From Phymorhynchus buccinoides (Eukaryota; Mollusca; Gastropoda; Neogastropoda; Raphitomidae), in contig CM065699.1 in the NCBI GenBank assembly GCA_017654935.2, forward strand, positions 13,822,011 through 13,886,010: DNA of 64,000 nt, read 5' to 3'. Under the pieces are notes generated by a model. It did not search any database, was not told where the DNA came from, and saw only the letters and a list, made by a program, of their open reading frames with translations. The position numbers were made by a program, and so were the translations under genes. Shown one piece after another: positions 33,967 through 54,790 of this stretch (position 1 is the first letter of the stretch; every line of letters starts with the position of its first letter).

Positions 33967-34060
33967 CTTTCATAGGTGAGAAGTCAATTAAATGGACCCG
34001 GCCTGGCAGCAGTGAGGGCTGGGCCGATTCCAGTGAGGATGATGGTGGGATGATGGTGAC
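33967..34060 (-). CDS. Candidate further MBTPS1 exon (uncertain)
   Basis: A strong donor (ATGAAAG then GTAAGT) on the minus strand ends at 33967. Upstream of it an open frame reads SSSLESAQPSLLPGR and VHLIDFSPMK. The position fits an exon after 36001-36198, and LLPGR recalls the MPGR stretch preceding the membrane anchor of vertebrate MBTPS1. The acceptor is unclear: the nearest upstream AG that fits is inside the adjoining minisatellite. It could equally be chance. Confidence 0.25.
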
Positions 34061-34815
34061 AGGGCTGGGCCAGGGGGGGAATGTTGAGGGTCTTCAGCAG
34101 TGACGATTCCTGAGGATGGTGGGATGATGGTGACAGGGCTGGGCCATTGGGGGCCTGTTGTGGGTCTTCAGCAGTGACGATTCCTGTTGATGGTGGGATG
34201 ATGGTGACAGGGCTGGGCCATGGGGGAATGTTGTGGGTCTTCAGCAGTGACGATTCCTGAGGATGATGGGATGATGGTGACAGGGCTGGGCCATGGGGGA
34301 ATGTTGTGGGTCTTCAGCAGTGACGATTCCTGTTGATGATGGGATGATGGTGACAGGGCTGGGCCATGGGGGAATGTTGAGGGTCTTCAGCAGTGACGAT
34401 TCCTGAGGATGATGGGATGATGGTGACAGGGCTGGGCCATGGGGGAATGTTGAGGGTCTTCAGCAGTGACGATTCCTGTTGATGGTGGGATGATGGTGAC
34501 AGGGCTGGCCGATTCCTGAGGGGGAATGTTGAGGGTCTTCAGCAGTGACGATTCCTGAGGATGATGGGATGATGGTGACAGGGCTGGGCCAGGGGGGAAT
34601 GTTGTGGGTCTTCAGCAGTGACGATTCCTGAGGATGATGGGATGATGGTGACAGGGCTGGGCCATTGGGGACTGTTGAGGGTCTTCAGCAGTGACGATTC
34701 CTGGGACTGGTGGTGGTGACAGGGCTGGGACAGGGCTGCCATGGGGGACTGTTGAGGGTCTTCAGCAGTGACGATTCCTGTTCTGGTGGGGTGATGGTGA
34801 CCACAGGACTGAGCC
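33990..34815. repeat. 73-bp minisatellite, about 11 copies
   Basis: TCTTCAGCAGTGACGATTCC recurs at about 34091, 34165, 34238, 34311, 34384, 34457, 34537, 34610, 34684 and 34757, followed by GGATGATGGTGACAGGGCTG-type words. The last unit merges with the candidate exon end at 33967-34060. The period is not a multiple of three, so frames do not persist. Confidence 0.92.
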
Positions 34816-34860
34816 AGTCCTTGCTAACGAGAGCCGAACCTAAACATGAAGAGAACATTT

Positions 34861-34982
34861 TTGGCGATATTCACAATTACGCCTGCCAAGAACGATAATT
34901 TGTAACAGAAAAGAACACTAACCCATTGCTTTTTCAGTCAACATTATCGTTCTTGGCGGGCTGTAATTGTGAATATTGTCAA
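34861..34982. repeat. Short inverted-repeat (snap-back) element
   Basis: GGCGATATTCACAATTACGC..AAGAACGATAAT (34863-34899) faces ATTATCGTTCTTGGCGGG..TGTGAATATTGTC (34943-34980), about 37-bp arms around a 43-bp loop. It is MITE-like and non-coding. Confidence 0.8.
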
Positions 34983-34999
34983 TTTTTATAAAAAATCTA

Positions 35000-35500
35000 A
35001 GCAAAGTCCAATTCTTAAGCAGAACAAACTCTAAAGCTACATTTGGATTTTTTTAAAAAAAGCATTTAGATTGCTTAACTCAATCTTTGAAACGTATTGA
35101 CCTGATTTATAAAATTAAAGAAAAAATTATGTTATGTGAATTAGAACTTTTAAACAAATTTGTAAAAATTAACGTGAGCAAAGCTAGTTGTTAATTTAGA
35201 CACCCCCTTCATGCTTACGACTCTCATCATTCTCAAAGTCTCAGGTTCTTTCAGTTACAAGACTGTCAACAACCTTAGGCTGATCCTAACCCTATCCCTT
35301 TTCCCGAGAACAGCAGAATGTTGCTTTTCAGTGAAAATTTTCAAAGCGAAAATGTAATACGGGTATCTAAACTACAACCCAGCCAAACCTTAGCCACATT
35401 ATTGCGGCGCATTGTTTCTGCCACTGAATTATAATAATAATAATTGATAGCATTTCTATGCTGTCTTTCTATCATTATTTTACACTCAAGGCGCTTTCCA
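35000..35500. other. No gene recognised; LINE/SINE-tail-like end at the gap
   Basis: AT-rich, then ATAATAATAATAATTGATAG and CTCAAGGCGCTTTCCA before the gap. The AAT repeat plus GCGCTTT tail recurs at 36483, 40825, 50940 and 52970. Confidence 0.5.
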
Positions 35501-36000
35501 NNNNNNNNNNNNNNNNNNNNNNNNNNNNNNNNNNNNNNNNNNNNNNNNNNNNNNNNNNNNNNNNNNNNNNNNNNNNNNNNNNNNNNNNNNNNNNNNNNNN
35601 NNNNNNNNNNNNNNNNNNNNNNNNNNNNNNNNNNNNNNNNNNNNNNNNNNNNNNNNNNNNNNNNNNNNNNNNNNNNNNNNNNNNNNNNNNNNNNNNNNNN
35701 NNNNNNNNNNNNNNNNNNNNNNNNNNNNNNNNNNNNNNNNNNNNNNNNNNNNNNNNNNNNNNNNNNNNNNNNNNNNNNNNNNNNNNNNNNNNNNNNNNNN
35801 NNNNNNNNNNNNNNNNNNNNNNNNNNNNNNNNNNNNNNNNNNNNNNNNNNNNNNNNNNNNNNNNNNNNNNNNNNNNNNNNNNNNNNNNNNNNNNNNNNNN
35901 NNNNNNNNNNNNNNNNNNNNNNNNNNNNNNNNNNNNNNNNNNNNNNNNNNNNNNNNNNNNNNNNNNNNNNNNNNNNNNNNNNNNNNNNNNNNNNNNNNNN
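35501..36000. other. Assembly gap (500 N)
   Basis: It truncates the MBTPS1 exon that starts at 36198 and may hide the C-terminal exons. Confidence 1.
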
Positions 36001-36198
36001 GAGAGGAAGGTGGGGTGATCGGACACCAGGCTGACCCCGGTCAGCTGACTGTCCATGTAGCCGTAGCCGCCCCCCGGCCGCTCCTGAATCCCTGCTAGCG
36101 GCCCGTCCAGCGGGTTGTCTCCCCTTTTGTTCAGCGGCAACATGGCCGCCGCCGGGTCAAGGTCGATGGACATCAGCTTCTGCGGCTGGTACAGGTTG
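36001..36198 (-). CDS. MBTPS1: MBTPS1 exon l (3' part lost in gap)
   Basis: The exon starts after a CCCCCAG acceptor and is read NLYQPQKLMSIDLDP, PLNKRGDNPLDG, QERPGGGYGYMDSQLTG, VSLVSDHPTFL, still open at the gap. Vertebrate site-1 protease has NLW.HQKLLSIDLD here, so the first 15 residues are recognisable and the rest is lineage-specific, as expected for the poorly conserved linker before the membrane anchor. The single C at its 5' end completes the Ser codon begun by exon k (AG). The donor and the following exon(s) with the transmembrane helix and basic tail are not visible. Confidence 0.88.
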
Positions 36199-36224
36199 CT
36201 GGGGGCAACAGAAATAGGTCATAA

Positions 36225-36482
36225 TCATATAATAAAAAGGCAAGTGTGTGTCTGTCTGTCTGAAACACAAAACGGGCCTTATAACTCCACCGTTTTTCGA
36301 CCAAATCGCTTCAAATTTGCTGTCAGGCTTGCTGTGGTCGGGGCAAAGCCTGGCAGCAAATTTGAAGAGAATCGGGAGAGCGCGTCACTCTCAGAGCAGC
36401 GCCAACGGGAAACGGGGCCTTATAACTCCGCAGTTTCTTAACCGAATCGCTTCAAATTTGCTGTACTCAGCGTTACCAGTAC
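36225..36482 (+). mobile_element. Helitron-family fragment
   Basis: It begins TCATATAATAAAAAGGCAAG preceded by A, with ACTCCACCGTTTTTCGACCA and AATCGCTTCAAATTTGCTG words. It ends without CTAG and runs into an AAT repeat, so the 3' end is lost. It lies in the intron just upstream of exon l. Confidence 0.75.
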
Positions 36483-36575
36483 TTAATAATAATAATAATA
36501 ATAATAATAAACGGACACTTATAATAGTTATATAGTGCTTTTTATTGAGCACAAAGCGCTTTACAATCAGCATTG
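36483..36575. repeat. (AAT)n with GCGCTTTACAAT tail
   Basis: AAT repeats are followed by TATATAGTGCTTTTTATTG and CACAAAGCGCTTTACAATCA. This tail recurs in the window and resembles the 3' end of a LINE or SINE in reverse. Confidence 0.6.
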
Positions 36576-36854
36576 AAACACTCGCACAAGCGCACACACA
36601 CGCACAACAGACACACACGTACGTGCACGCACGCGAGTGAACACGTTCTTGCGCACAGACATTCCCACACAGACCCACACACATTTCATCAAACACACAG
36701 AAAACACATTCTCACTGAAACGCACACACACTTACTCAAACATACACTTGTACAAACATGCACACATGCACGCACATGAGCACACACACACACACACACA
36801 GACAGACACAAACACTCACATACACAAAAAACCCTGGTATTAATACCACTACTA

Positions 36855-37458
36855 TTAACTCTTCTAGCGAATGCAGACCTGTTTAACCTGAAATCGGGCT
36901 TCGTGTATTCAGAATCCAAAATAAGTCTATTTTTCACAAAATAGGAGTACCGTACTCCAACAGGAAAGTTAAAAAAAGAATGAGTGCAAACATGCATACA
37001 TTTTTATAACTTATAGAAATACTATGTCAAAAGTGTCATCCATTGATTACAACAACAAAACACGCACGCACACGCACGCACACACACACAGATCGCACCA
37101 GTTTCCTGAATCAGGCATGATCAAGATGATTTGTTTTCACCATTTCACAGTATTTTCCCCCATGTACCATATTTATGTCAGAACTGTGTACAAAATACAG
37201 TGAAATCTTATGGGTAAACAGGTCTGCGAATGTGTTTAGCCCAAGGCATCACTCTACACTCCCACCAAAAGGCGGAGACATTTACCTCCAAGCACCCTGC
37301 CTAGTTCTTGTATATTTTTAGAGCTTATGTCACTGGGTTTTTTTCTGTAAAGTAATGATTGCGCACATGGGAAAAAAAAAGAGTTATTGCCCTGTTGTTG
37401 GTTGAGATGCAACGGACAACCAAGAACATCAAAAAATACATGGCGCTAGAAGAGTTAA
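36855..37458. mobile_element. TTAA-flanked MITE, second family (600-bp copy)
   Basis: TTAA at 36855-36858 and 37455-37458, with ends CTCTTCTAGCG and CGCTAGAAGAG as perfect inverted repeats. The right part resembles 4407-4652. The left part carries extra sequence including CA repeats, perhaps a nested insertion. It sits in an MBTPS1 intron. Confidence 0.75.
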
Positions 37459-37504
37459 AAACAGGACAACACACCACGTGGATGTACTCACAGAACTGGT
37501 CATG

Positions 37505-37514
37505 GGGGTGAGGA

Positions 37515-37550
<36 letters not shown>
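37505..37550. repeat. Poly-G run
   Basis: G-run of about 35 with a GA-rich lead-in. Confidence 0.9.
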
Positions 37551-37569
37551 TGGAAACCTAGCAATCAAT

Positions 37570-37815
37570 TTAGTTCATACCTGGCAGCGGGATTTCTCCC
37601 TGCTCTTATCGACTTTTTAATTGTTGTGAGATTTTTATGCGCATAAAGAGCATGGGTCAGACTAGCTTTAAGTCCCCCGTCCGAAGGATTTGATGTTCGG
37701 TTCGATTTTTCAGTCAAACTGGAAAGCAAGGGCGAGGCCGGGATTCGAACCTGGGTCACTCAAGCACTGAATTGGCAGGCGAACGCTTTAAGTTAAAGTT
37801 TAACCAACTCTCTAA
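37570..37815 (-). mobile_element. tRNA-derived SINE, second family
   Basis: On the minus strand: TTAAAGCGTTCGCCTGCCAA, then CCAGGTTCGAATCCCGGCC (a good B box), then a body with ACTTAAAGCTAGTCTGACCC and GGGAGAAATCCCGC. The plus strand shows CGGGATTTCTCCCTGCTCTT, repeated at about 60850-60880. Confidence 0.75.
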
Positions 37816-37881
37816 CTAAAATCACCGGCACAAAAAACTTTCCTACCACGTTCTATCCATCTCTTAAATTCATGATTCATT

Positions 37882-37885
<4 letters not shown>

Positions 37886-37936
<51 letters not shown>
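37886..37936. repeat. (CT)n microsatellite
   Basis: Pure CT tract in an MBTPS1 intron. Confidence 0.93.
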
Positions 37937-37938
<2 letters not shown>

Positions 37939-37999
37939 CCTTATTCTATCTTGTTCTGATTGAAACAGCTAGCTGACTGCAGTAATTGTTGTTAAATGT

Positions 38000-38258
38000 T
38001 AATGTGTAGAGATACTATTACAGAGCTGCCAACCCAAAAATCTCTTCTCAGTACTACTTATGAATCTTCTCAGTATTTTTCATACAGTATTTTTTTCCGC
38101 GCGGTTATTTTGTGTGTGCTATTCTTTAGTTGAACAAATGTTGATTAAAAAAAAATATCACTGACTGTATCACTATCAGTGATTATATTACAAAGAGTTT
38201 TTCTTTGACAATAACACACTTTACTACTGCTACTACTACTACTAGTAATGCTATTACT

Positions 38259-38294
<36 letters not shown>

Positions 38295-40010
38295 TATTCA
38301 CAGATTGAGACAGACATACACACAAACACCTTACAGTCACACTGACAGACAATGACAACACAGAGAGAGAGAGAGAGAGAGAGAGAAAGGGGGGGAGGAG
38401 ACAGAGACAGAACAGGCACAACACACACAAAGAAAGTCATCTCTCTGAACAGCTCTCCCGCATGTGTCCACCAAAAAGTGTGCAAACAACGTTTCGGCCC
38501 TAATCAAAGATGAATCGTCTGCTTTTGCACTTGGAGGAGTCGCGCGATAGTAAAAAAAGTTCGTCAATATTTTGATGACTGTTCGATGGCAGCGCCTTTC
38601 TTTTTATGTCTGGTAGACTTACGTGAGAGTTGAAACATCGTTTGTGCCGCCGTGGCTGATAACAAAATCCATGTCACATGTCATGAACCTTGCTACGTCG
38701 GACCCATTTTTGATGTGATGATGCACGGAAAGTCCGTTCTATATGAAGCCAGAAAGTGCTGTTGCCGGTTTTTTCCACCACTCCCCGAAGGTGCAGTCTC
38801 CTCATTTTTTTCTTTTTCGTGCTCTTGTCCATTTTGTAGATGATGATGAACTTTGAAGAATACAAACTAGGCCTAGGCTAGTGCTTGCTGCTTCGAGAAC
38901 GCAACTGTCAAGCAGCTTCGCGTGCTTTACTGCCGCCTTCGTTGATTGGATGAAATCACAAGAAATCTTGAGCAAAGAGCAGCGATTGGTCTTTTTCTTA
39001 TGACGTTTTCCACTTGGCGTTACTAAAAATAACCTCAGCCATACTCTTGACTCGATTACCGAGGCAAGTTACCACAACAACCGGCGATGTCCGATTCAGC
39101 CATAAAATTGACCAGCAAGTCTCTCGACTCGATTAGCCTACTCGGATTCACTAGAAGTTATGCAACAAACGGCTGAAAGTCTGTTACAGCCACTCTAGGT
39201 CCGCTAGAGTCCTGGCAAGTCTGTTGACTCGATTAGCCTACACGGATTGACAAGAAGAGCTATAGAAGGCCGTACATTTTTCGCAAGATTGTTGCCGTAT
39301 TGATTTGTACTGGACCGTATTTCCGTATTTTGTTAAGGTCGCCATATTAAAATACGGCCGGAACGTAACGGTTGGCAGCTCTGCTATTATCATCTGTATT
39401 GATGTGTGTGTATTGATTGTTGATGTCAATGATGACGAGAAGTATTCCAAATGTTATTTGATTGACTGTTATAAGTTAATAATGGTTACTCTGTTTTAAA
39501 TGTGCACATTTCTAAGTTCATGTAATGAATCTTAATAATTATTTGATTGGTATAATTTTGTTTCACACGTTTGATTAATGTTCTTTCTTTCAGTTATGTT
39601 GTATCTCTGTCATGTTGTTGCACCTAACCTGAATTTCTCTTTTGGAGATATTAAAGTATACTTGAACCACTGCACCAGCTTCCTTTTCTACTAAAGACCA
39701 TGGTTTGGAGACACGGAAGAAAAACAATAATTCTACAAACTACGCCATTCAAAATCACACACTCTCAGTTTACAGAGCATTAAAAGCATATAAGGCCGTG
39801 TACACAGCAGACGCGAAAATCCCATGCGCAATCCGTAAATAAGTAAAAGAAAGAAGGAAAAAATTAAATACACCTGTCCGTATTTCACTTTCTTTTACTT
39901 ATTTATGGGTCTACGTGCGTAACTTCCGCGTCTCATGTGTTCTTGCCGTAACACAGTGATGACGTAAGAATCTTCAAAAACACCACATCGAAATTTTACT
40001 TCAACTTCAA
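38000..40010. other. Intronic sequence, no exon recognised
   Basis: Part of the long intron between exons k and l. CA/GA runs lie at 38270-38390. Imperfect repeats of GACTCGATTAGCCTAC occur at about 39140 and 39228. No open frame with splice borders and similarity to MBTPS1 was seen. Confidence 0.55.
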
Positions 40011-40018
40011 GCACCTAC

Positions 40019-40145
40019 CTGGGAGCTGATTTATTCAAAGGATGAGGTTTGGCCCAATTCAGGCTTGGGCATGGTGGCAAAGGTCGTGACCTTGACTTCC
40101 CAAGGTTACCTTCGATGACCTTGGAGTACCGATGAAGGTGGTTTC
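40019..40145 (-). CDS. MBTPS1: MBTPS1 exon k
   Basis: The acceptor is TTTTTCTAAG and the donor is CCCAG then GTAGGT. It reads [41 protein letters not shown]. Vertebrate MBTPS1 has [20 protein letters not shown] here and PRLSWAKPQPLNETAPS after it, so the match is unmistakable. The leading GA completes the Gly codon opened by exon j, and the trailing AG opens the Ser of exon l. It encodes lumenal stem sequence downstream of the catalytic domain. Confidence 0.95.
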
Positions 40146-40259
40146 CTTAGAAAAAGAAAACACAATCATTGCAAAACACACGCATAAATAATACAGTTTT
40201 TCAACAGGACTGATAACATGGCAAAACAATTTGTAATGCATTGTATGTTCAAATTCAAA

Positions 40260-40280
40260 TGTGTGTGTGTGTGTGTGTGT
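40260..40280. repeat. Short (GT)n
   Basis: GT tract just upstream of exon k in the intron. Confidence 0.85.
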
Positions 40281-40567
40281 GCATTAGTGTGTGCAATGAA
40301 AGTGCATGGGCATATGTGGTATCTATCTGTAGGAGTTGGTTGCACTGCGGAGCAAACATGCACGCATATAAATGCGAATTCTTGATGCACTGCTGCGCTA
40401 GCATGCATGCACATAAGCGTGCATCCTTGACATGCAGACTCTTAAGGTACACACACTTAACTGCGACTCCCCTGCCCTCACTCATGCATGAATACACGCA
40501 TGCTAGTAATAAAGCATCTACAATACAGTTGTGGCTTCTTCTTCTTCTTCTTTGTTCCAAGCTAAAC

Positions 40568-40724
40568 TACCATATTTTTCGGACTATAAGGCGCACACCC
40601 CACATTTGACACAAAATTCAGATTTTGCTATTATGTTTTCTTACTATATTATTAGTCATATTATAAAGCACAGCGGTTTCAATCTGGGGAAAAAGTATCG
40701 CCTTATAGTCAGAAAAATACGGTA
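40568..40724. mobile_element. TA-flanked MITE with ATTTTTCGGACTATAAGGCG ends
   Basis: The ends ACCATATTTTTCGGACTATA and TATAGTCAGAAAAATACGGT are inverted repeats bounded by TA. This is a Tc1/mariner-type MITE layout found widely in animals. A second copy is at about 54080-54214, and a degenerate one may lie at 62120-62222. Confidence 0.75.
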
Positions 40725-40824
40725 GATGTTTAGTCCAGTCCAGTAAATGAAGGTTGCAGTTGACTGCAGCATCACAACAGAACCCCACAGCTTGTTTTCT
40801 AGCGCCACAGGCCTGGGCCATATT

Positions 40825-41260
40825 TATAATAATAATAATAACAACAATAATTATCATTATATAGCGCACATATCTAGAAACTTCTATTCATGGTGCTTTA
40901 CAATAAAATAAAACTACAAACGGTCCCATTTTAGCACACACATACACAAATATTTGTTTAAAAGGTGGCGATTCACACACACACACACCTCAATTATCCA
41001 TGCAGTGCAATTAACCAATGCATGACAGCTACAGCTTGAAGAATAGATGAGTTTTCAAACTAGTTTTGAATGCTTGCAGAAAGTCAGAGTGTCTGAGAGA
41101 CAGGGGTAAGTTGTTCCACACAGACGGAGCCTGTGATGAAAAGGACCCTTTCACCATAAGTCTTAGTTTTGACAATGACTGGTTGCAGGAGGTGAGCGTC
41201 AGAGGAAGAGCGGAGGAGACGAGAATGTCACATCTCAGTGTGGCTAGAATATGTTTTCTT
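40825..41260. repeat. Dispersed repeat with AAT / GCTTTACAAT tail
   Basis: It begins with AAT repeats and TATATAGCGC, then GGTGCTTTACAATAAAATAA, and continues into GATGAGTTTTCAAACTAGTT and GGTAAGTTGTTCCACACAGA words typical of long interspersed repeats in invertebrate introns. No intact frame. Confidence 0.45.
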
Positions 41261-41286
41261 TTAAAGTGTAAAGGGGTTGACAGTAC

Positions 41287-41409
41287 CTTCCATCCTCTCA
41301 GGCAGCTCTGCCACAGGGCTGAGTGGCACAGAGTCCTGCATGTAGAGGTTGACAGGCAGCACCTTGTGCGCCGTGTACTCCAGCATGGCCTTCAGCATCC
41401 AGAAACAGT
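41287..41409 (-). CDS. MBTPS1: MBTPS1 exon j
   Basis: The acceptor is GTGTTTTTCAG and the donor is GGAAG then GTACTG. It reads DCFWMLKAMLEYTAHKVLP, VNLYMQDSVPLSPVAELP, ERMEG. The family has DCFWLLDALLQYTSYG.TP at the start and PERMEGN at the end. The middle is variable. The lone leading AC completes Asp with the G of exon i, and the trailing G opens the Gly of exon k. Confidence 0.96.
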
Positions 41410-41627
41410 CTGAAAAACACACAGCACACAATAATATATTATATACATGCAGGGGTGCTAGTGGGAGCACGTCCACAAACCTGAAATTAGAATTCTTGCG
41501 AACCTGAAATAAAATATCGTGAAAACCAAAAACCCGAAACTTCCTATAAAAAGTGTTGAAACCCCCCCCCCCAAATGGAGGTCAAAAGTGTTTATACTCC
41601 AAAAACCAGAAGCCACAAGTTTATATG

Positions 41628-42030
41628 TGTATAAGAGTCTGCACCTTTCTGGAGGTAAACAAACTGAGACAGACTGCAGCGTCAATGAGGTGGCTGTGTG
41701 TGTGTGCAATATGTGCATGTGTGTGTGTGCATATTTTTTATGTGTGCATACCTGTAAGTGTGTACTGGGAACGAAAAAGAAGAAGTAAGTGTGTACATTT
41801 TGCAGGTGGTTGGTGTCGAGGAGCTGACAGCACGATGAGCCTGTACCAAGTGTGTATGTGTGTGTGTGTACACGCATACACATGTGTGACTGTAAAAGCG
41901 TGTACATTTCAGCAGGTGGCTATAAGTATGCATTGTGTGTGTGTGTGTGTGTGTGTGTGTACGTGCGCATGTACATGTGCATGACTGTAACAGTATGCAA
42001 CTTTCCGCAGGTGGCTTTAAGATTGCAGTG
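41628..42030 (-). pseudogene. Four tandem copies of the donor end of MBTPS1 exon i
   Basis: In the intron downstream of exon i, the exon's last bases plus donor recur near 41628-41680, 41783-41842, 41888-41925 and 41981-42025, separated by GT-rich sequence. Plus-strand words are CACCTTTCTGGAGGT, CATTTTGCAGGTGGTTGGTG, CATTTCAGCAGGTGGC and AACTTTCCGCAGGTGGC, against the true CACCTTTCTGCAGGTGGCTG. The 41783 copy extends further into the exon (CAGCACGATG word). Donor GT is kept in three copies and changed to TT in the 41981 copy. All are degenerate and not expected to code. Confidence 0.8.
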
Positions 42031-42266
42031 TGTGTGTGTGTGTGCATGCATGCATGTGTATGTATGTACACTGTATGCATGTGTGTTGTTAGTTCTTCAG
42101 TTTAACGTCCTTCCACTAAAAGTGATTCAGACAGTATTATAGTGAGGTTTTAATTTTGGTGTAGGGTGTGTCTGTGGTGATTGTGTGCATGTGAGTGTGT
42201 GTCTGTGTGTGTGTGTATTCACGCATGTTTGCCTGTGCGCGTGTGCATGCCCGTAAGAGTGCGCAC

Positions 42267-42410
42267 CTTTCTGCAGGTGGCTGGTGTCCAGGCAGTTGGA
42301 GTCTCCGTACAGCACGATGCGTCCTGCGCCTGGCTTGGCAGGGGTCTGGTGCATGCCCAGGATGGGCACCCCTTCCTTGCTCTGCGTCTCCCCCTTCAGC
42401 ACCTCGTAGC
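42267..42410 (-). CDS. MBTPS1: MBTPS1 exon i
   Basis: The acceptor is TTTCTCTCTCAG and the donor is CAGAAAG then GTGCGC. It reads [47 protein letters not shown]. Vertebrate MBTPS1 has LEVLKQETAVVENVPILG and [20 protein letters not shown], one of the most conserved stretches outside the protease domain. The leading GC completes Gly and the trailing G opens Asp. Both borders of this exon have been tandemly copied into the flanking introns. Confidence 0.97.
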
Positions 42411-42892
42411 CTGAGAGAGAAATACGAAACACAAAATATTTAATGCTTCAAACATGGGTGAATGTGGCGACCAAAGCGTTTGCCTGATCTTTCCATCATA
42501 ACCCTTGCTAAAACGGTCCATTTAAGAGCAAGAAGAGCATGAGAAGAGGCCTGTCTTCAGGCAGACCACTGCCTGAACCAGCATCAAATTGCCTGAATTC
42601 AGGCTTCAGGCAGACCTACATGCACCCCTGTTCAAAGCTATATAGCTCCATTAGCATTTCGGCACGATGCACATAGCAAAATAATCGAAAGTAACAAACA
42701 AACAAATCAGCCGTGAAAAGTTCGACATGGCAACCACAGCGAACAATGTACATTTTTCTTTTCTTTTCCGTTTTTTCCCCTCATCTGTCTCTCATATGCT
42801 ACAAGTCACAGGTCAAGCTTGGTCCACGCATGGGAATCCCGTGGCAGTCAGCTGTGTCAGCCAAAGTTGCTGTCACCCAGGTATTGATGCAT

Positions 42893-42916: not shown

Positions 42917-43034
42917 AGTGTAGAGTGGCACAGAGGTAACGCCTTCGCCTCTTACACAATAAACCCCAGTTTGAACCTGGGTACAGGGGATTTTTCCTCT
43001 CACTTTGCACTAGGCCTTACGGTCTGGACGTGGA

Positions 43035-43236: not shown

Positions 43237-43790
43237 AGCCTGAGAGAGATGGTATCAGTATTTGTAGCCTGAGAGAGACAGACACAACTGTCAGAGATGG
43301 TATCAGTATTTGTAGCCTGAGAGAGACAGACACAACTGTCAGAGATGCTATCAGTATTTGTAGCCTGAGAGAGACAGACACAACTGTCAGAGATGGTATC
43401 AGTATTTGTAGCCTGAGAGAGACAGACACAACTGTCAGAGATGCTATCAGTATTTGTAGCCTGAGAGAGACAGACACAACTGTCAGAGATGGTATCAGTA
43501 TTTGTAGCTTGAGAGAGACAGACACAACTGTCAGAGATGGTATCAGTATATCTAGCCTGAGAGAGAGACACAACTGTCAGAGATGGTATCAGTATTTGTA
43601 GCCTGAGAGAGACAGACACAACTGTCAGAGATGGTATCAGTATTTGTAGCCTGAGAGAGACAGACACAACTGTCAGAGATGGTATCAGTATTTGTAGCCT
43701 GAGAGAGACAGACACAACTGTCAGAGATGGTATCAGTATTCCTAGCCTGAGAGAGACAGACACAACTGTCAGAGATGGTACCAGTCATCT
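43237..43790 (-). repeat. 48-bp minisatellite built on an MBTPS1 splice acceptor, about 11.5 copies
   Basis: Plus-strand unit: GTAGCCTGAGAGAGACAGAC then ACAACTGTCAGAGATG and GTATCAGTATTT. On the gene's strand each unit reads TGTCTGTCTCTCTCAG|GCTAC, and the true acceptor of exon i, 0.8 kb downstream, reads ATTTCTCTCTCAG|GCTAC. Splicing exon h to a unit would give Gly-Tyr-Lys-Tyr then TGA, a premature stop. Copies differ by single bases. Confidence 0.9.
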
Positions 43791-44476: not shown

Positions 44477-44664
44477 CTGCAGACACGAAAATAACTTTGA
44501 TGTTAAGGCTGTGTGAAAGGTCAATGCATTTTCTAATGACACTTAAGACTGGTTTAAAAGTGAATGCACATTTCTGTGGTAAGCTGCAGTGTGGTGTGGT
44601 GTGTTTGCAGTTAATGAGTTATGTCGTGTTCAGTGTGGTGAGTGTAACTAAATTGTGATAATAA

Positions 44665-44829
44665 TCATATAATAAAAAGGCAAGTGTGTGTGTGTGTGTG
44701 TCTGAAACACAAAACAGGCCTTATAACTCCGCTGTTTTTCGACCGAATCGCTTCAAATTTGCTGTCAGGCTTGCTGTGGTCGGGGCAAAGCCTGGCAGCA
44801 AATTTGAAGAGAATCGGGAGAGCACGTCA
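44665..44829 (+). mobile_element. Helitron-family fragment
   Basis: It starts TCATATAATAAAAAGGCAAG after an A and shares the AATCGCTTCAAATTTGCTG and CAGCAAATTTGAAGAGAATC words. It is cut short at the CACGTCATAGTAATAAT junction. Confidence 0.75.
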
Positions 44830-46261: not shown

Positions 46262-46342
46262 CTGAAGGCCATGCTGTATGGCAGCAGCAGATCGTTGATG
46301 GCTGGGATGTTGGCGCCCCCTGTGTCCGGCATCCACCATTGT
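46262..46342 (-). CDS. MBTPS1: MBTPS1 exon f
   Basis: The acceptor is CTATTGTCAG and the donor is CTTCAG then GTCAGC. It reads [46 protein letters not shown] is a signature block of MBTPS1. The leading A completes the Arg from exon e, and the final AG opens the Ser of exon g. Confidence 0.97.
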
Positions 46343-46536
46343 CTGACAATAGCACACAGAGAAAGCAATGACACGGTGCAAACCTCACCCAGAAATATAA
46401 AAAAATCCATAGAAACGTGAAGTGCAAGGATGCTTGAATGCATTTTTGCCTTGGCAGAAAGAAACCCCACACACACTTGTCACAACATAGCCCTTTTTGG
46501 TACACTCTGTGAGTCTATAGTATGACAGTTGTTCGG

Positions 46537-46537
<1 letters not shown>

Positions 46538-46619
<82 letters not shown>

Positions 46620-46645
46620 AGTGTGTGTGTGAGTGTGTGTGCGTG
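46538..46645. repeat. (GT)n microsatellite
   Basis: About 76 bp of pure GT, then GT with GC/GA interruptions, in an MBTPS1 intron. Confidence 0.95.
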
Positions 46646-47061
46646 TGTGTATTGCGTCTGTGGTCTAATCTCCAAACTTTAACGTTGGCATTTTCTCGGG
46701 AAATAGAAGGCACACATTGTTCAAACTTTGCACACATAAAGATGTCTATGCAAGCTTTCAAACAATAATGATTTGAATAATTAAATACTTAAAACAACAC
46801 TGTAAACAGATAACAAACAGATAACATTTTAGATTAGTGGGTTAGAGAGTATTCAACAGGCAACATGAGTTAAGAAACTCATCAACACTGAAAGCTTCAT
46901 TTGTACTTTAAAATTTTATTGGCCAGCTTGTACTTTGGACACCCCCCTTAATCTTTGTTTGTCGTTGTCCCACATGTTCCTGCTTGAGTGAGCCTTGAAG
47001 GCTTTGCCTCTTGTTTCATGCTAATGCTGTACGTGTTGATAAAAACTGATGGACAGATTTC

Positions 47062-47279
47062 TTAAAAAAACTTTTGCGACCAATTGATGCATTGATGCAC
47101 CACAATGGTTTAACACCCATGTCACTAAAAGGCAACCAATCAGGCACTGCTCAGGCACTGCTGATGCTATATACATGCCACAGAGAAATTTCCACTATTG
47201 AAGAAATTTTTTTTCTCGACCCAGTTAAGATTAATGGTATTTTTTGGCTGAAAAAAATGGCTGGCGGAAAAAGGGTTAA
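47062..47279. mobile_element. TTAA-type MITE, first family (diverged)
   Basis: TTAA near 47062 and at about 47276-47279. Internal words are CCACAATGGTTTAACACCCA and TGTCACTAAAAGGCA, and it ends GGCTGGCGGAAAAAGGG. Confidence 0.7.
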
Positions 47280-47559
47280 AAAAAATAAAATAATAAATAT
47301 ATCCATGCCAACGAAACGAAGATAGCAAAACCTAGCCTCCCACCATTGCAGATGCAAAGAACAAAGTGTCCCCACTGTAGATTCATACTTTCTTCATCTA
47401 GGAGACATTGTGCCACTCGAGGAACTCAATGACAGATGGACTTTGAAAGAAAAGTTTACAGACAAATCGATTTTATTTCATTAGTAACCAGTCAAGGAGT
47501 TTATAGACAAAATCCCCCAACAAAACACCAATTAAATACAGTGAGATAATTTTGAGGGG

Positions 47560-48170
47560 CCTGGTCCTCTTTATCAATCCATGGACTCATGCTAATGAAC
47601 TTCAGAAGGACTTCCAAGGTATCATGATAAGCTTAGTGCAACGTCGTGCAGCTTGATGGGTGGTGAACCGCCATCGCCAAACATCGAGCGTGGACAACAT
47701 GATGTTGGAGCTGCACTGGGACCCACTGAAAGACAGACGACGATCGGCAAGGCTGGCCACCTTCTTCAAGCACCATCATGGAGAGGTGGCCATCAACACC
47801 CAGCACATCCCCCACCCACCATCACGCCAGACAAGACTGTCACACATAGCAGCATTATCTTCTTCCGGCAACAAAAACACATAACAGGAAGTTTTCTTTC
47901 TTCCTCAGGGCTGTGTGTGAGTGGAACAGCCTTCCACCTGAGGCAATAACATCTGCCTCAATGGAGGTCTTCAAAGTCCAGATTTAACCCCCCTCCCTCC
48001 CTCCCCCCCCCCCCCCCCGATACCCTCTTCCCCCCTCACTTCCCTTTCCCTGGAGCTGATCATCTGGGCAGCGCTTACTCCCCACAGATTGATTTTTATA
48101 CCGGAAACCCCCGTTTGTAATGCATCATAACCGTCAATAGGATGACGTAGGATGCTAAGAGAAAGAAGAA
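47560..48170 (+). pseudogene. LINE reverse transcriptase C-terminal fragment
   Basis: Plus frames read VNRHRQTSSVDNMMLELHW, DPLKDRRRSARLATFFKH, then after a frameshift a FFLRAVCEWNSLPPEA-like word and SASMEVFKVQI. This is the order at the end of CR1-like ORF2. C-runs and a 3' tail follow. Inserted in the intron between exons e and f. Confidence 0.75.
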
Positions 48171-48202
48171 GAAGTCTCATACTATCTATGTGAATACAGG
48201 CC

Positions 48203-48273
48203 CTGGGGTTTTCATCGAAGAATCTCACTTTCTTCACGACAGAGACGTACCGGTCGGCAAAGATGATGAAGGT
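48203..48273 (-). pseudogene. Duplicated fragment of MBTPS1 exon e
   Basis: The minus frame reads FIIFADRYVSVVKKVRFFDEN, against [22 protein letters not shown] in exon e. About 72 bp match with roughly eight substitutions and a 3-nt loss. The donor GT after the exon end is gone (reads GGGCC). It lies 1.6 kb downstream of exon e in the same intron and orientation. Confidence 0.85.
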
Positions 48274-48307
48274 CCGACACAAACCAAAATAAGCCAGTAT
48301 GACATAT

Positions 48308-48329
48308 CAAATTCCCTGTGGGGATACCA

Positions 48330-48363
<34 letters not shown>

Positions 48364-48385
48364 GTGTGTGTGTGGGTGTGTGTGT

Positions 48386-48416
<31 letters not shown>

Positions 48417-49140
48417 GGGGTCTTTTGTACAAATAGTTCCTCCACCTTCTGGAAGTTTTGTGCTTGTAGCTTCCTGTAATCTATCATTCTCTTTGACTCT
48501 GCCTTTTACCCCTTTCAGGGTTCCCAGGGCTTTCAGCTATCCCCAAGTAAGGACCTTGTAAGGACCTGTATGCCTAAGGATAATGTCCATCGGCATCTTT
48601 TAGCCAACGATCTCGAAAGGAACACTTTCCCAGCATTGTGAACGATGTCTAAGCAGATACAAAAACTATGGCTCACACAGATATATGCGTTTTCTCGCAA
48701 AACGACACCAGGATAAAGAACGAGATTTCAATCCAATTTCTCTTGACAACTCATGGTGCATCATTCGTCTGCTAAGCGGTCAGTTGAAACGGGAAGGTGG
48801 GGGAGGGGGGTAAGGTGGAGTAGGTGCTGAGCGATGTTTCTCAAGTGTAAAAGTGCTGCTTCTGCAATCTATTTTGAGTATGGTCTTGCTGCTCAGGGCA
48901 GTTTTTGGCAGCTGTCAGGACTTGTAAGGACCTTGAAGTGAATGTAAGCACTTGTAAGGCCTTACTTGGAGATTTCAATTTGTCAAGACTTCTAAGGACT
49001 GGTAAGGCCCCTATGAACCTTGCCTTTGCTTACTGTCATCTGCTATCTTTCTCCCTTACTGGTCCATTCTACCCCTTTTCTATAAACTCTTTCAAAGATA
49101 TTCTCCGGCCAAAGACGGACATGCTGGGCCTAACTACTTA
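48308..49140 (-). mobile_element. Dispersed SINE-like repeat, interrupted
   Basis: It starts with CCCTGTGGGGATACC and G-runs split by a (GT)n block (48331-48420), then TAGTTCCTCCACCTTCTGGA and the body. An unrelated stretch of about 500 bp containing repeated TAAGGACC-type words follows, then the element resumes with TTGCTTACTGTCATCTGC and GGACATGCTGGGCCTAACTA. Confidence 0.6.
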
Positions 49141-49293
49141 GTTTTTCTCTGAAAATATTACAGGGTTTCAGGAGATGTTGTCTCTTGGTGTAACCAATGG
49201 ACTAAAAGCCCTTTATGGTGATCAGGGGGCAACTGCTCTTGAAGATGAATATGTAATACTGTTCAAACTTGGGGAAATGGCATCTTCTCAAAC

Positions 49294-49537
49294 TTAACCC
49301 TTTTGCCGCCAATGTCGCATTTATGCACAATGGTTTAACACCCATGTCACTAGAACTAGAAGGCATCAAATCCAGGTCTGTTATCCAAAGACCCTATTTC
49401 TTATGTTTGGGGATAGGCCTAGTGTTATACATCTCACAGTCCAGAATTCCTAATATTGCAGATAAAATGTTTATCTCTACCCAGCTAAGTTTAATGGAGT
49501 TTTTTGGCTGAAAAATGGCTGGTGGTGAAAGGGTTAA
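49294..49537. mobile_element. TTAA-type MITE, first family
   Basis: TTAA-bounded, with ends CCCTTTTGCCGCC and GGTGGTGAAAGGG, 244 bp. Orientation is opposite to 18935-19180. Confidence 0.82.
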
Positions 49538-49901
49538 AACCCCTTCTGACATATGATTTTTTGCATTCACTTTTCTCTGAATTCAGAGTAATCTCTGAAA
49601 ATTACCATGCCTGATAACGGCAGCATGACGCATCTGCGCTCACACGACAGGAGGCTGTCCGAGTGAACGACAAAGAAACAAACAAAACAGAAAGCGTCAA
49701 ATTTCACAAGTCACACAAGTCAAGAAGTCAAGTCACAACATTTTATTGTCCTTAAAAGGATATACAGCTTGTGGTGGCACGTAAAAGTAAAACATAAAAC
49801 AAAACCCAACATATCACAGGTCTAATAACGCAGCATTCATGCAAAACACGCTCACGCACTCGACATGCAACCATTCATTCCCACTGAGGCCTTGAACCCA
49901 C

Positions 49902-50094
49902 CTGGTGTTTTCGTCGTAGAATCTCACTTTCTTCATGACAGAGACGTTGTACCAGTCGGCGAAGATGATAATGGAGAGGCCGTTGTCCACGTCGCGCTTC
50001 AGCTTGGTCACCTCCTCCGGGAAGTACTCCTCCTCTGCGTCCACGATCAGCAGGGTGCCGTACTGACTGGCGTCGAAGCACGTGAAGGGGGACC
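49902..50094 (-). CDS. MBTPS1: MBTPS1 exon e
   Basis: The largest exon here, with acceptor GTTTTGCAG and donor ACACCAG then GTGGGT. It reads [63 protein letters not shown]. The family has [38 protein letters not shown] and LVIFSDWYNTSVMRKVKFY, so identity is high throughout. The block is a glutamine-amidotransferase-like (GATase/ThuA-type) fold in the lumenal half, without the subtilase active site. The leading GG completes the Gly opened by exon d. Confidence 0.97.
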
Positions 50095-50198
50095 CTGCAA
50101 AACACCACGTAAATAGAAATTGTAAGTAATACAGGTAATACTCTTGAAAGATTCTGTGGAAACAAGAAAAAGAAGTAGGAGTGAGAGATAGAGATAGA

Positions 50199-50240
50199 CG
50201 CGTCCACAATCAGTAGTTGACCCCTCTGATATCTGGAAGT
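50199..50240 (-). pseudogene. Possible short fragment copy of MBTPS1 exon e
   Basis: The minus strand reads [11 protein letters not shown], resembling [10 protein letters not shown] in exon e. About 15 bp around CTGATTGTGGACGC match well and the flanks poorly. It sits 100 bp upstream of the exon's acceptor. It may be chance. Confidence 0.4.
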
Positions 50241-50351
50241 CATGAGGACATGGCTGAGTAGCTTGCACGCACGCGCAAACACACATACATACGCACGCAC
50301 ACACTTCATGTACCATTCAACTTTGCCTTCTTTGCCATGTTTGGAAATGGG

Positions 50352-50532
50352 TACAGTGGGACCTCCCTATTAAGACCTCCCCTACTAAGACTCCCTCTAA
50401 ATGTGACCCAACAAATTTTCACCGATGATTTCTCCCCCTTCATATCTGGACTACTGAGTGTCCTAGACCCCTCTCCATTAAGACCTTTTGGGGCTGATTT
50501 GTTCAAGGTCTTTATACGGAGGTTCCACTGTA
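50352..50532. mobile_element. TA-flanked MITE with CAGTGGGACCTCC ends
   Basis: TACAGTGGGACCTCCCTATT and ACGGAGGTTCCACTGTA are inverted repeats bounded by TA, 181 bp, non-coding. This is the typical layout of a mariner-type MITE. It lies between exons d and e. Confidence 0.8.
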
Positions 50533-50554
50533 ACTGGTGGTGCATTGTTCTTAC

Positions 50555-50634
50555 CCAACACTTCCACATAGTATCCGCTGGTCCTCAAGTGCTGGTACAT
50601 GTCCCTGAAGTTGGTGTGGATGTGGTCGCCATTC
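50555..50634 (-). CDS. MBTPS1: MBTPS1 exon d
   Basis: The acceptor ends GCGCAG and the donor is GTTGG then GTAAGA. It reads [26 protein letters not shown]. The family has [20 protein letters not shown] and FVEVLG, nearly identical. The leading G completes Trp and the trailing G opens Gly. Confidence 0.98.
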
Positions 50635-50694
50635 CTGCGCAACACAGGGCCAGGACCATTTTATAATAATAATAATAATAATAATAATGCATAT

Positions 50695-50936
50695 TTAACC
50701 CTTTCACCGCCAATGTTGCATTTTTGCACCACAATGGTTTAACACCCATGTCACTAAAAGGCATAAAACCAGGGTCTGTTATTCGAAGACTCTATTTTCT
50801 TAAGTTTGGGAGGTAAGGACAGGCCTAATGTCGCACATGTCACAGAGGAATTCACAATATGGCAGAACATTTTTTTTCTCCAGTTAAGCTTAATGGTATA
50901 TTTTGGCTGAAAAATGGCTGGCGGCGAAATGGTTAA
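50695..50936. mobile_element. TTAA-type MITE, first family
   Basis: TTAA-bounded, with ends CCCTTTCACCGCC and GGCGGCGAAATGG, 242 bp, between exons c and d. AAT repeats stand just before it and a TATATAGCGCTTTACC tail just after. Confidence 0.8.
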
Positions 50937-51239
50937 AATGAGTATTTATATAGCGCTTTACCTCGAATGATCGCAAAGCACTTTACAAAATGATGTCCAA
51001 GCAACAAGCACGCAACAAATTACATGTACAGCACTCAAGAAGAACAACACTGGACAGACACACATACAAGCACATACACACTCTTTCTCTCACTTCTTAT
51101 ACCCAATTGGCTCACTCTCTATCTCTCTCACACTCTCAGTCTCTTTTGCAAACAGACACACACATACACACAAACACGAACACACACTGAACAACTTTAT
51201 TTAACAAGGATAAAGATTTTAGGCGATGCCTATACTGAC

Positions 51240-51335
51240 CAGTCCAGAGGGTCGTTCTTCATGCGCAGATTGTCCCTGGGGAAGTAGCCCGGGGGGTACC
51301 TCAGGTTGTGGTACTGGTCCCACAGAATGCGCTTA
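51240..51335 (-). CDS. MBTPS1: MBTPS1 exon c
   Basis: The acceptor is CTGTTGCAG and the donor is GGACTG then GTCAGT. It reads [31 protein letters not shown]. The family has [20 protein letters not shown] and [12 protein letters not shown]. The leading T completes Asn and the final TG opens Trp. Confidence 0.98.
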
Positions 51336-51360
51336 CTGCAACAGGTCACAGGGGATTTAT

Positions 51361-51363
<3 letters not shown>

Positions 51364-51416
<53 letters not shown>
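51364..51416. repeat. (GT)n microsatellite
   Basis: Pure GT tract immediately upstream of exon c. Confidence 0.95.
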
Positions 51417-51421
<5 letters not shown>

Positions 51422-52226
51422 TGGGGGTTTTTTTCTTTCTTTTTTTTTCTTCATGGTTTTTTGTTTGTTCGTGTGTGTGTGTGTGTGGTGTGTGTGTGCA
51501 TGATTGTGTGTGTGTGTGCATGAATATGTAAGCACATGCATATATGCATAAATGTGCCTGTAAATGCATGTGCTATTTATGCATATATGCATGCACATAC
51601 ATATTATGTATGTGGCATAACATCCATGTGTGTAAAAAGGTAAAGAACTCTCCGTTTTAATAAGAACTTATCTCCTGTCAAAATACTTGAAGACACCCAT
51701 TTGTCTTAGACTGTGGTTGCGGATGACAAGACGGCCAATCCTGAAGACTGTTTCTATCAGTTTTTTCAATCCTGATTTCACGAGCATGTCTGAACTACCT
51801 TTACAGTTCACAAGTTTATTCATTTGTCTTTGAGTTACAAAGAAAATCATTGCTCAGGATGCACATACAACAATAAAATGTTTCTTACATAAGCCACACA
51901 ACACGCACAGAAGAAACACACACACACACACACACTATACAAAATGAGGACAGGATGAAAAAAAGCTGTCAAGTTTATTTCTTTATCCTCAATAAAGATC
52001 ATTTTGACTTGACTTGACTTGACTTGACACACAAACCACATTTTCACACTCCTTTTTACCCCTCACCCCCATTCTACAGGTACCTTTTTCATCACCCCTT
52101 TCTACCCCTCAGAAGTGTTTAGATGTAGTCTTTTGACAGAACAAAAAGCTACTCTACATCTTTTGAGTTTGAAGAGTCCACAAACAGAAATGTGAATATT
52201 ACTGTTATGTACAACAATAATAACCA

Positions 52227-52799
52227 CTAGCGCAACGCCGAGTACCAGTAACGCCTAGTAACGGTAACGCCTAGTAATGGTAACGCCAAGTACTCGTAAC
52301 GCTGAGTACAGCAAATTTGAAGCTGTTGGCGCTGCTCTGAGAGTGACACGCTCTCCCGATTCTCTTCAACTTTGTTGCCAGGTTTTGCCCCTGCAACAGC
52401 AAGCCTGTCAGCAAATTTGAAGCGTTTCGGTTAAAAAAACGGCAGAGTTATTTGTGAAAAGGTGAAGCGGCGTATATCGTGCGCGTGTCTGCATCGATTC
52501 GCTTCCGGTTTGGTACATCGATAGTCACCGTCCCCGGTCATCTACCTGCCAAATTCGAAGGCAATCGGTCCAGAAATACCGGAGATACGGGCATTGAGAG
52601 GCCGGTGGATACGCGTTTCGCGCATTTGCCAAACCGCGCAAATGACACGGCCGCCTCGGTTGCCGTTGCCACCGCCCCATTAGGGCTCACAGCAAATTTT
52701 AGGCGATTCGGTCAAAAAACGGCGGAGTTATAAGGCCCGATTTGTGTTTCAGACAGACAGACAGACACACACACAGACACTTGGCTTTTTACTATATGA
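52227..52799 (-). mobile_element. Non-autonomous Helitron (573 bp)
   Basis: On the minus strand it starts TCATATAGTAAAAAGCCAAG after A (52800) and ends GGCGTTGCGCTAG before T (52226). Sub-terminal GGCGTTAC/GTAC repeats match those of 491-1247. It sits in the MBTPS1 intron between exons b and c and has no coding capacity. Confidence 0.85.
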
Positions 52800-52827
52800 T
52801 TATCGTAATAAAAAGACATATTCTTAC

Positions 52828-52904
52828 TTTCTGGGAGGTGTGGGAATAATCCTCACTCTAATGGGCAGAGTCACAGTCGATCGCCGCGGTTCCTTCTCTT
52901 CCTC
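52828..52904 (-). CDS. MBTPS1: MBTPS1 exon b
   Basis: The acceptor is TTGATTATCAG and the donor is AGAAA then GTAAGA. It reads EEEKEPRRSTVTLPIRV and RIIPTPPRN. The family has [20 protein letters not shown]. The acidic start is lineage-specific. Phase is 0 at the start and +2 at the end. Confidence 0.94.
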
Positions 52905-52967
52905 CTGATAATCAAAAACAATACAAATGAGCAGGTACCTCCACGACTTAGCAAAACTTTTCCTACC

Positions 52968-53045
52968 ATTTAATAATAATAATTATAATTGATATTTTCA
53001 GAGCTCTTTCTCTGAAGAGTTCAGAGCGCTTACAACAAAGTTAAT
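52968..53045. repeat. AAT-repeat tail with GAGCGCTTACAACA
   Basis: Another copy of the AAT plus GCGCTT tail type, as at 36483, 40825 and 50940. Confidence 0.5.
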
Positions 53046-53554
53046 TTAAGATAATTAAATAACAACAATAATAACGACATAATTAATCAAGAAAAAGTCT
53101 TAAATAGAGAATTATTTTTTTTACATAATTACAAATCCAATACTATGCATGTGCATGCGAGCACACATACACACACACAAACATAAAGCATAAAAAAGAC
53201 ATTCTTAAGCAAAGGCTACTCTACGTACAAGCAGGACTAAACAGGGCGCAGTGCAATTAGGGGTAAGACAGAGAAGATGTTGGCGATGGAGTTATCGATC
53301 CTGGCAATCCTGCAGGGTCTCCATCGATTTGGCCACTACTACCAACTGTCATCGTGATTGTGAAGACAAATCATGACGTGTGTGTGTGTGTTTGATAACT
53401 ATGTTTTATGTCAATTACATGTGCTTTTATGTTATTTTACAAATTGTCTTTTATGTGCATGCCGAAAAACAAATTTCTTCATTTGTTTGGAGACAATAAC
53501 AATGTGGAATTGGAATTGCATGCACTGCAAACACACACCACCACCACCACTCAC

Positions 53555-53740
53555 CCCTTCTGCTGGTGACTCTATGGTGAGGGTGACCTGGCCCTTGGCG
53601 ATGCCTTCCCACGATGCTGCGGCCTTGGCGGCCGTGATGGAGACGGCCAGGAAGCCAGACCAGGGCCACAGGTGGGTGGAGGCGGAAAACGCAACTTCAA
53701 TGTAGCCTCCAAATTCTGGCATGTACGGCTCCCACCGCGG
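53555..53740 (-). CDS. MBTPS1: MBTPS1 exon a (most 5' exon seen)
   Basis: The acceptor is TTCTCTGTTTTCCAG and the donor is GAAGGG then GTGAGT. Its 62 codons read [54 protein letters not shown] and TIESPAEG. The family has PDWQPYLP..GDNIEVAFSY and LWPWSGYLAISI, then [20 protein letters not shown]. This is just downstream of the subtilase domain, whose Asp, His and Ser exons are not in the window. The first 85 nt and the acceptor are repeated upstream. Confidence 0.97.
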
Positions 53741-53937
53741 CTGGAAAACAGAGAAAAACAAACTGTTGACTTGTATGTACGCCAGTCAGTCGTTTTGGAT
53801 GGTGACTACCAGATAGCAGAGGGGGCAAATTCTATTCCGGCGGGCTGGGCTAGAATTTGTTTACAGTGGAGATGCTTTTCCCGAAAATGTGAAATGCTTC
53901 AGGAAAAGGCATGTCATCCTTTGACTTAGTGAACAAA

Positions 53938-54790
53938 GTTATAGACAAGCAGCCAGACCAGGGCCACAGGTGAGTGGAGGCAGAAAACGCAACCTCAACA
54001 TAGCCTCCAAACTCTGGCATGTATGTTCCCACCGAGGCTGGAAAACAGAGAAAGACAAACTTCTGACAATCAGTATTTTCTTTTTACTATAAGGCGCATC
54101 CCCCAAATTTTACACCAAAATTTATATTTTGTTACTATATTTTCTGACCATGTAAGGCGCAGGGGTCTCAGTCTGGGGGGAAAAGGGTATCGCTTTATAG
54201 TCTGAAAAATACGGTTGTGAACAAAGTAATTGACAAGCAGCCAGACCAGGGCCACAAGTCGGGATGGACAACAGAGGACAAATGACTTAGTGAACAAAGT
54301 TATAGACAAGCAACCAGACTAGAGGCACAGGTGGGTGATTGAGAAAAGAGGAAAACACAACCTCGACATAGCCTCCAAACTCTGGCATGTACGGCTCCCA
54401 CTGAGGCTGGACAACAGAGAAAGACAAACTGTTGACTTAGTGAACAAAGTTATAGACAAGCAACCAGACTAGAGGCACAGGTGGGTGATTGAGAAAAGAG
54501 GAAAACACAACCTCGACATAGCCTCCAAACTCTGGCATGTACGGCTCCCACCGAGGCTGGACAACAGAGAAAGACAAACTTTCGACTTAGTGAACAAAGT
54601 TATAGACAAGCAACCAGACTAGAGGCACAGGTGGGTGATTGAGAAAAGAGGAAAACACAACCTCGACATAGCCTCCAAACTCTGGCATGTACGGCTCCCA
54701 CCGAGGCTGGAAAACAGAGAAAAACAAACTGTTGACTTACTGAACAAAGTTCAAGATAAGCAGCCAGACCAGGGCCACAGGTCTTCTGGG
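53938..54790 (-). pseudogene. Tandem copies of the acceptor and 5' half of MBTPS1 exon a
   Basis: About five units lie upstream of the true exon. Three regular ones recur every 150 bp (GACAAGCAACCAGACTAGAG at 54305, 54455 and 54605). One is near 53938-54060 and a deleted one at about 54226-54300. Each has a pyrimidine tract, CAG acceptor and [16 protein letters not shown]-like coding, then breaks at the WPWSG position and joins intron sequence. The 53938 copy has a 1-nt frameshift early on. The regular copies reach a stop soon after. A MITE interrupts the array at 54080-54214. Confidence 0.92.
54080..54214. mobile_element. MITE of the ACTATAAGGCG family inside the exon array
   Basis: ACTATAAGGCGCATCCCCC at the left and TATAGTCTGAAAAATACGGT at the right, as at 40568-40724. 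It inserted after the array formed. Confidence 0.65.

Follow-up and report, generated by a model that had tools for sequence, protein, structure and literature searches.

Copies of splice borders in the introns of a gastropod MBTPS1 gene resemble the mirages of amphioxus

Tandem repeats that extend across exon-intron boundaries were described as mirages in the globin genes of amphioxus (Ebner et al. 2010, PMC3087553). According to the accessible parts of that paper, the mirage of BflGb6 lies on the acceptor side and is built of 150-160 bp units, which number 6 in one and 3 in the other of two haplotypes, and the mirage of BflGb9 lies on the donor side, where the 3′ boundary of exon 2 is duplicated. 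The same source points to earlier cases in amphioxus Adh3, and PMC3902484, as far as its text was accessible, adds PGBD5 as a further mirage gene and cites Adh and TnC. The mirage data suggested that regular splicing was undisturbed, and a route to new introns was proposed for the amphioxus globins (PMC3087553, accessible parts). An intron gained via a tandem duplication over an intron-exon boundary is reported for potato RdRp in the accessible portion of PMC4974935. Here we describe intronic copies of exon borders in the MBTPS1 (membrane-bound transcription factor site-1 protease) gene of the gastropod Phymorhynchus buccinoides. They were found within a window of 64,000 nucleotides, meaning the whole stretch of DNA analysed (GenBank assembly GCA_017654935.2, contig CM065699.1, positions 13,822,011 to 13,886,010 of the forward strand).

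A sequence-only reading of this window had already pointed to such copies and had taken them for a pattern with no described name, which was mistaken, as the accessible texts of the two amphioxus papers make clear (PMC3087553, PMC3902484). We consider the copies to be mirage-type structures, that is, ordinary small tandem duplications that straddled splice junctions and were followed by minisatellite growth in the intron, and we put the probability of this reading at about 0.72. The sample is one gene in one haplotype, and the gene was picked for its striking look.

MBTPS1 is encoded on the minus strand of the window, which holds its C-terminal half. Among the best 120 of 1321 matches, the best named relative was Pomacea canaliculata (82%), and three other entries reached 84-85%, which makes a caenogastropod origin likely. 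Twelve exons, a to l, were placed from 53740 down to 36003, with exon b ending at 52828, and their positions were cross-checked by tblastn with the MBTPS1 proteins P0001 and P0004. AG was present at 12 of 12 acceptors and GT at 11 of 11 visible donors, exon l running into an N gap (35501-36000). Site-1 protease chains from the PDB match exon e.

At exon a, the repeated sequence comprises ~30 nt of the intron end, with its polypyrimidine tract and AG, together with 88 nt from the start of the exon, and it recurs upstream. The acceptor-side copies that had been claimed for this exon were borne out, since 53653-53740 was found again at 53951-54037 (88.6% identity) and three more times, at ~81%, within 54314-54706 (Table 1). 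The exon-intron boundary is thereby crossed by the outlying unit as well as by the three full units of the array, and tandem units lie beside the authentic boundary, though intervening sequence parts the exon, the outlying unit and the array from one another. The array units show 95% matches among themselves in Tandem Repeats Finder (TRF), versus ~81% to exon a, and the three full units have a 7-bp insertion in common that is absent from both the outlying unit and exon a. The array has thus been homogenised internally with the boundary unit left out, which is the concerted evolution with an excluded boundary unit known from mirages.

Splice signals are likewise kept in many units of this family: four of the five boundary copies of exon a retain the polypyrimidine tract and AG, the copy near 54270 being the one without AG. 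The four retained acceptors (54037, 54406, 54556 and 54706) are all spaced from the true acceptor of exon a by a multiple of 3 nt, which may be due to chance, and in the frame of exon a all four copies run into a stop after 32-39 codons. Judged by their sequence, they are possible decoy acceptors. A longer unit, extending further into the exon and closing on a 4-bp microhomology, was considered and rejected, as its tail matched no better than shuffles (P 0.54). Separately, ~140 bp of unrelated sequence (53772-53920) parts the outlying unit from exon a and has AAGTCAA at both flanks; it has the appearance of an insertion that duplicated a short target.

The donor side of exon i yielded a second family, again in agreement with what had been claimed, in which the exon end and donor recur four times downstream on the same strand (41632-42016). 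These copies are strongly decayed, with 80-88% identity across 25-41 bp, and were read against controls in which 12 queries (each an exon ±40 bp) were searched against 21 targets derived from the gene region, 20 of them block-shuffled and one reversed, with a word size of 7 as compared to 6 in the main search. The 21 control targets gave 16 matches of at least 28 bits, 8 of at least 30 bits and none of at least 33 bits. Only the exon i copies at 41976-42016 and 41788-41821 scored above every control match; those at 41892-41921 and 41632-41656 were accepted because their register and spacing fit the same series, and not for their score. Tandem units crossing the donor are thus present at exon i, with two of the four copies lying within the control score range and one of the four retaining the exon-end/GTGC junction. 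On the acceptor side of the same exon, the claimed copy came down to an exact match of 15 bp (28.3 bits), which consists for the most part of polypyrimidine-AG and includes 5 bases of the exon, and this is at chance level because the controls gave 16 matches of at least 28 bits.

The copy claimed for exon e (48203) is real, but it is neither local nor tandem, as it lies 1.6 kb from the exon, and a second fragment at 47377-47419, which is probably an older duplicate of a stretch of exon e, lies 2.5 kb away and is not tandem either. Homology is exonic only in this family, and tandem units crossing the boundary were not found. The fragments most probably arose either as short insertions of exon sequence, templated or ectopic, or as what is left of an older or larger duplication. 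The claim that copies are local and in the same orientation therefore holds in its second part for every exon copy of at least 30 bits, and in its first part for exons a and i but not for exon e. The exon a and exon e copies exceed chance, as do the better ones of exon i; the features of mirages that could be examined here are present at exons a and i and absent at exon e.

Table 1. Coordinates of exons, copies and associated repeats (positions within the window; TRF, Tandem Repeats Finder; ppt, polypyrimidine tract)
Feature	Position	Strand	Evidence and remarks
Exon a, MBTPS1_3rd domain, authentic source copy	53555..53740	-	Acceptor AG 53741-53742; tblastn with P0001/P0004; Pfam PF23094, 8e-20; splice sites
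Outlying unit, joining 88 nt of exon a to ~30 nt of intron that include ppt-AG	53951..54067	-	89% identical (88.6% on exon sequence alone)
Inserted repeat separating outlying unit from array	54086..54215	.	72% match to 40583-40723
Degenerate partial unit of exon a family	54217..54281	-	80% to array units; 54239-54262 matches exon a; AG lost, CCAT for CCAG
150-bp tandem array, 3.3 copies, 95% matches	54283..54782	-	TRF; three full acceptor plus exon a copies, exon-like starts 54406, 54556, 54706, ppt-AG in each
Partial unit of exon a family	54762-54782	-	At array end
Exon e, MBTPS1_4th domain, source of exon e fragments	49902..50094	-	tblastn; splice sites; Pfam PF23090, 2e-30
Copy of last 68 bp of exon e	48203..48267	-	86.8%, E 6e-18; homology ends at about the exon/intron border
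Weaker part-copy of exon e	47377..47419	-	76.7% over 43 bp, 33.7 bits, above all 21 controls; tblastn 47365-47436, E 0.03-0.04
Exon i, source copy of donor-side family	42267..42410	-	Donor after 42267; tblastn; splice sites
Exon i donor copy 1	41976-42016	-	82.9%, 43.7 bits
Exon i donor copy 2	41892-41921	-	28.3 bits
Exon i donor copy 3, carries more exon sequence	41788..41821	-	33.7 bits; 24 bp of exon alone, 31.0 bits
Exon i donor copy 4, exon-end/GTGC junction kept	41632..41656	-	32.8 bits
95-bp tandem pair holding exon i copies 41976-42016 and 41892-41921	41850..42044	-	TRF and alignment; (CA)n-rich, (CA)n between copies
48-bp minisatellite	43245..43785	.	TRF; unit has 15 bp in common with exon i acceptor, link unsupported
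73-bp minisatellite downstream of MBTPS1	34041..34801	.	TRF

In the families of exons a and i, the units are in tandem order on the same strand and hold the splice border, and the exon a array is homogeneous. A simple course of events would lead to this arrangement. A duplication of ~100-150 bp might by chance straddle a splice junction of MBTPS1; where the duplicated segment crosses from intron into exon, the copy that stays joined to the rest of the exon would leave it intact, and the other copy would be wholly intronic. The partial copy would then land upstream of the exon in the case of an acceptor and downstream in the case of a donor, and in both clear cases the copies are indeed on the predicted side (upstream of exon a, downstream of exon i). 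Duplications inside exons would be purged for altering the protein, and within introns they would never be recognised as exon copies, so that the anchoring at splice sites is probably a survivor effect of the duplication geometry. Once in the intron, copies would grow and homogenise, as minisatellites usually do. We infer selection as the filter in this course, and slippage or unequal exchange as the mechanism of growth.

Several findings weigh against this explanation. The exon a unit closes with ~27 nt that do not resemble exon a (P 0.54 versus shuffles) and for which no source was found, and the exon e copies do not fit a tandem geometry. In a count of events, two of the seven tandem families hold a junction against a mean expectation of 0.41 (P 0.055, or 0.074 if one family is given a different unit length), and with exon e included, three of eight families hold border sequence against a mean of 0.49 (P 0.008). 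P is 0.024 when a dispersed 240-bp family, described below, is added to the count. Copies of exons can be recognised for longer because the exon itself is conserved and does not drift, and giving them a detection weight of 2 yields P values of 0.16 (tandem families only) and 0.044 (with exon e), and a weight of 3 yields 0.28 and 0.105; these weights are guesses, however, and the list of families was made by hand after the data had been seen.

The unweighted excess, in which three of the eight hand-listed local families contain exon-border or exon-end sequence, would speak for a process that seeks out borders, with splice-junction DNA acting as a hotspot of tandem duplication in this lineage, by template switching or breaks linked to R-loops. 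Mirages in several amphioxus genes also suggest that mirage-rich lineages exist (PMC3087553, PMC3902484, accessible parts). However, the excess fades under detection weighting, it stems from a single gene selected as striking, and no enrichment is seen at the level of windows. Local same-strand copies of at least 36 bits were scored in 80-bp windows, 23 at junctions and 824 in introns, and were found for 2/23 junction versus 105/824 intron windows within 1 kb, 3/23 versus 132/824 within 2 kb and 3/23 versus 146/824 within 3 kb, in a test that leans against border enrichment, as intron windows overlap and include arrays and each array copy is counted. The sequence-only reading had tied its proposal of a recurrent border process to copies being more frequent near exons than between intronic windows, and within 1, 2 or 3 kb no such excess is seen in MBTPS1, which by its own terms counts against it. 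What stands of that proposal is the repeated duplication of borders, plainly at exons a and i and more indirectly at exon e. A concentration of copies at borders is doubtful, a special process is not needed, and we regard a border-seeking one as improbable. It seems similarly unlikely that snails of this lineage, like lancelets, carry boundary minisatellites in many genes and that exon edges are real duplication hotspots. Were it so, a second animal phylum would be continually provided with decoy splice sites at its exon edges and with material from which new introns and exons could form.

The other accounts fare worse. Nucleation of slippage by (CT)n or (GT)n tracts at intron edges, as first suggested, would agree with exon i, whose donor lies 51 bp from the nearest dinucleotide tract of at least 6 units and whose copies have (CA)n between them. 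It finds no echo at the acceptor of exon a or the donor of exon e, where such tracts are 349 and 1461 bp away, nor along the gene, since just 1 junction in 23 has a tract within 50 bp, versus 13.1% of gene bases; moreover, the pyrimidine tract of exon a sits inside the unit and not at its edge. This makes nucleation by tracts very unlikely. A function of the copies, as decoy or alternative splice sites or as remnants of alternative exons that would regulate MBTPS1, is suggested by the four exon a copies (of five) with polypyrimidine tract and AG at multiples of 3 nt, and by the one exon i copy in four with the exon-end/GTGC junction. Against it are the stops after 32-39 codons in those four copies, the lost AG in the fifth, and the amphioxus mirages, reported without disturbance of splicing in the accessible parts of PMC3087553 and PMC3902484, so that a regulatory role would seem hardly probable. 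As for the assembly, the window belongs to a draft scaffold with three 500-bp N gaps, and at 95% identity the units of an array are difficult for an assembler to place; the copy number of the arrays is in doubt. That the arrays as such arose from assembly error or collapsed haplotypes has only a very small chance of being true, given the 11-20% divergence of the copies from their exons, their indels and the repeat inserted between units, for which misassembly is an unlikely source.

In the window as a whole, the minisatellite load is considerable, which speaks for the mirage-type reading, with 19 arrays of period at least 16, hand-picked from the TRF output, making up 4,811 of 62,500 bp. The 73-bp minisatellite at 34 kb, said to adjoin a candidate exon, is real, but the exon is not supported: Pfam gave no match at E<=0.1 for two open reading frames (ORFs) examined next to the array, and neither P0001 nor P0004 aligns there. 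In the tblastn search of these two proteins against the window, the first ~570 residues remained without a match, as did the C-terminus beyond exon l, which places the minisatellite downstream of the known coding exons. A second host gene was not apparent among the ORFs scanned, as Pfam matches at E<=0.1 were found for none of eight (5 of the 141 filtered ORFs of at least 70 aa outside MBTPS1, one shorter ORF and the two at 34 kb), and neither tRNAs nor Rfam families passing the gathering score were present in the window.

A ~240-bp element is present three times on the same strand within 4 kb (47071-47281, 49294-49539 and 50695-50938); the copies were judged dispersed by eye only, and their ends, also by eye, resemble inverted repeats next to TTAA, so that the element is perhaps a small DNA transposon. 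Another dispersed repeat occurs in both orientations (36221-36464, 44661-44829, 52288-52451 and 52686-52803), and exon l has a copy immediately upstream of it. Inverted counterparts of several ORFs and of a 92-bp minisatellite at 1409-5683 are present at 21797-28004, which suggests either an inverted duplication of large size or long elements that form a pair, and 26624-30588 holds a tandem array of ~830-bp units, ~91% alike, with (GA)n tracts.

Taken as a single gene, MBTPS1 serves mostly to show that the pattern already bears a name and can be accounted for in simple neutral terms. If mirages were common in a mollusc, they would be no peculiarity of lancelets, and neutral survivors versus a mutational hotspot could be tested across many genomes. 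The frequency at which new introns are born from boundary duplications would become testable as well, a step that the accessible parts of the respective papers propose for the amphioxus globins (PMC3087553) and report in potato (PMC4974935). No boundary minisatellite of a mollusc was found among the papers listed in a literature search that was only partly aimed at molluscs and covered subscription journals thinly; the Conus and abalone papers, in their accessible parts, have intronic repeats and none across a splice border.

Within those limits of the accessible texts, several known systems invite comparison. The 27-bp minisatellite of the abalone TSSK1-like gene (PMC6905558) also sits in a gastropod intron, where the array is variable in length, but unlike the MBTPS1 arrays it is not described there as crossing a splice border. 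The dmrt1 gene of Solea senegalensis (PMC7605655) has a partial non-functional exon copy between exons, as MBTPS1 does, yet that copy came from a 10-kb intragenic duplication and not from short tandem units. With potato RdRp (PMC4974935), MBTPS1 has in common an acceptor-crossing duplication of which the copy carries polypyrimidine tract and AG; in potato the copy gave rise to a new intron and exon, whereas those of MBTPS1 are intronic and no such sign was seen. The amphioxus mirages (PMC3087553, PMC3902484) differ in that the present gene is from a mollusc and not a cephalochordate, is known here from sequence alone, and has an exon i family that is strongly decayed and (CA)n-rich. They agree with it in tandem units of ~150 bp over an acceptor or a donor, an authentic exon that stays intact, splice signals kept in many units, and concerted evolution in the array from which the boundary unit is excluded.

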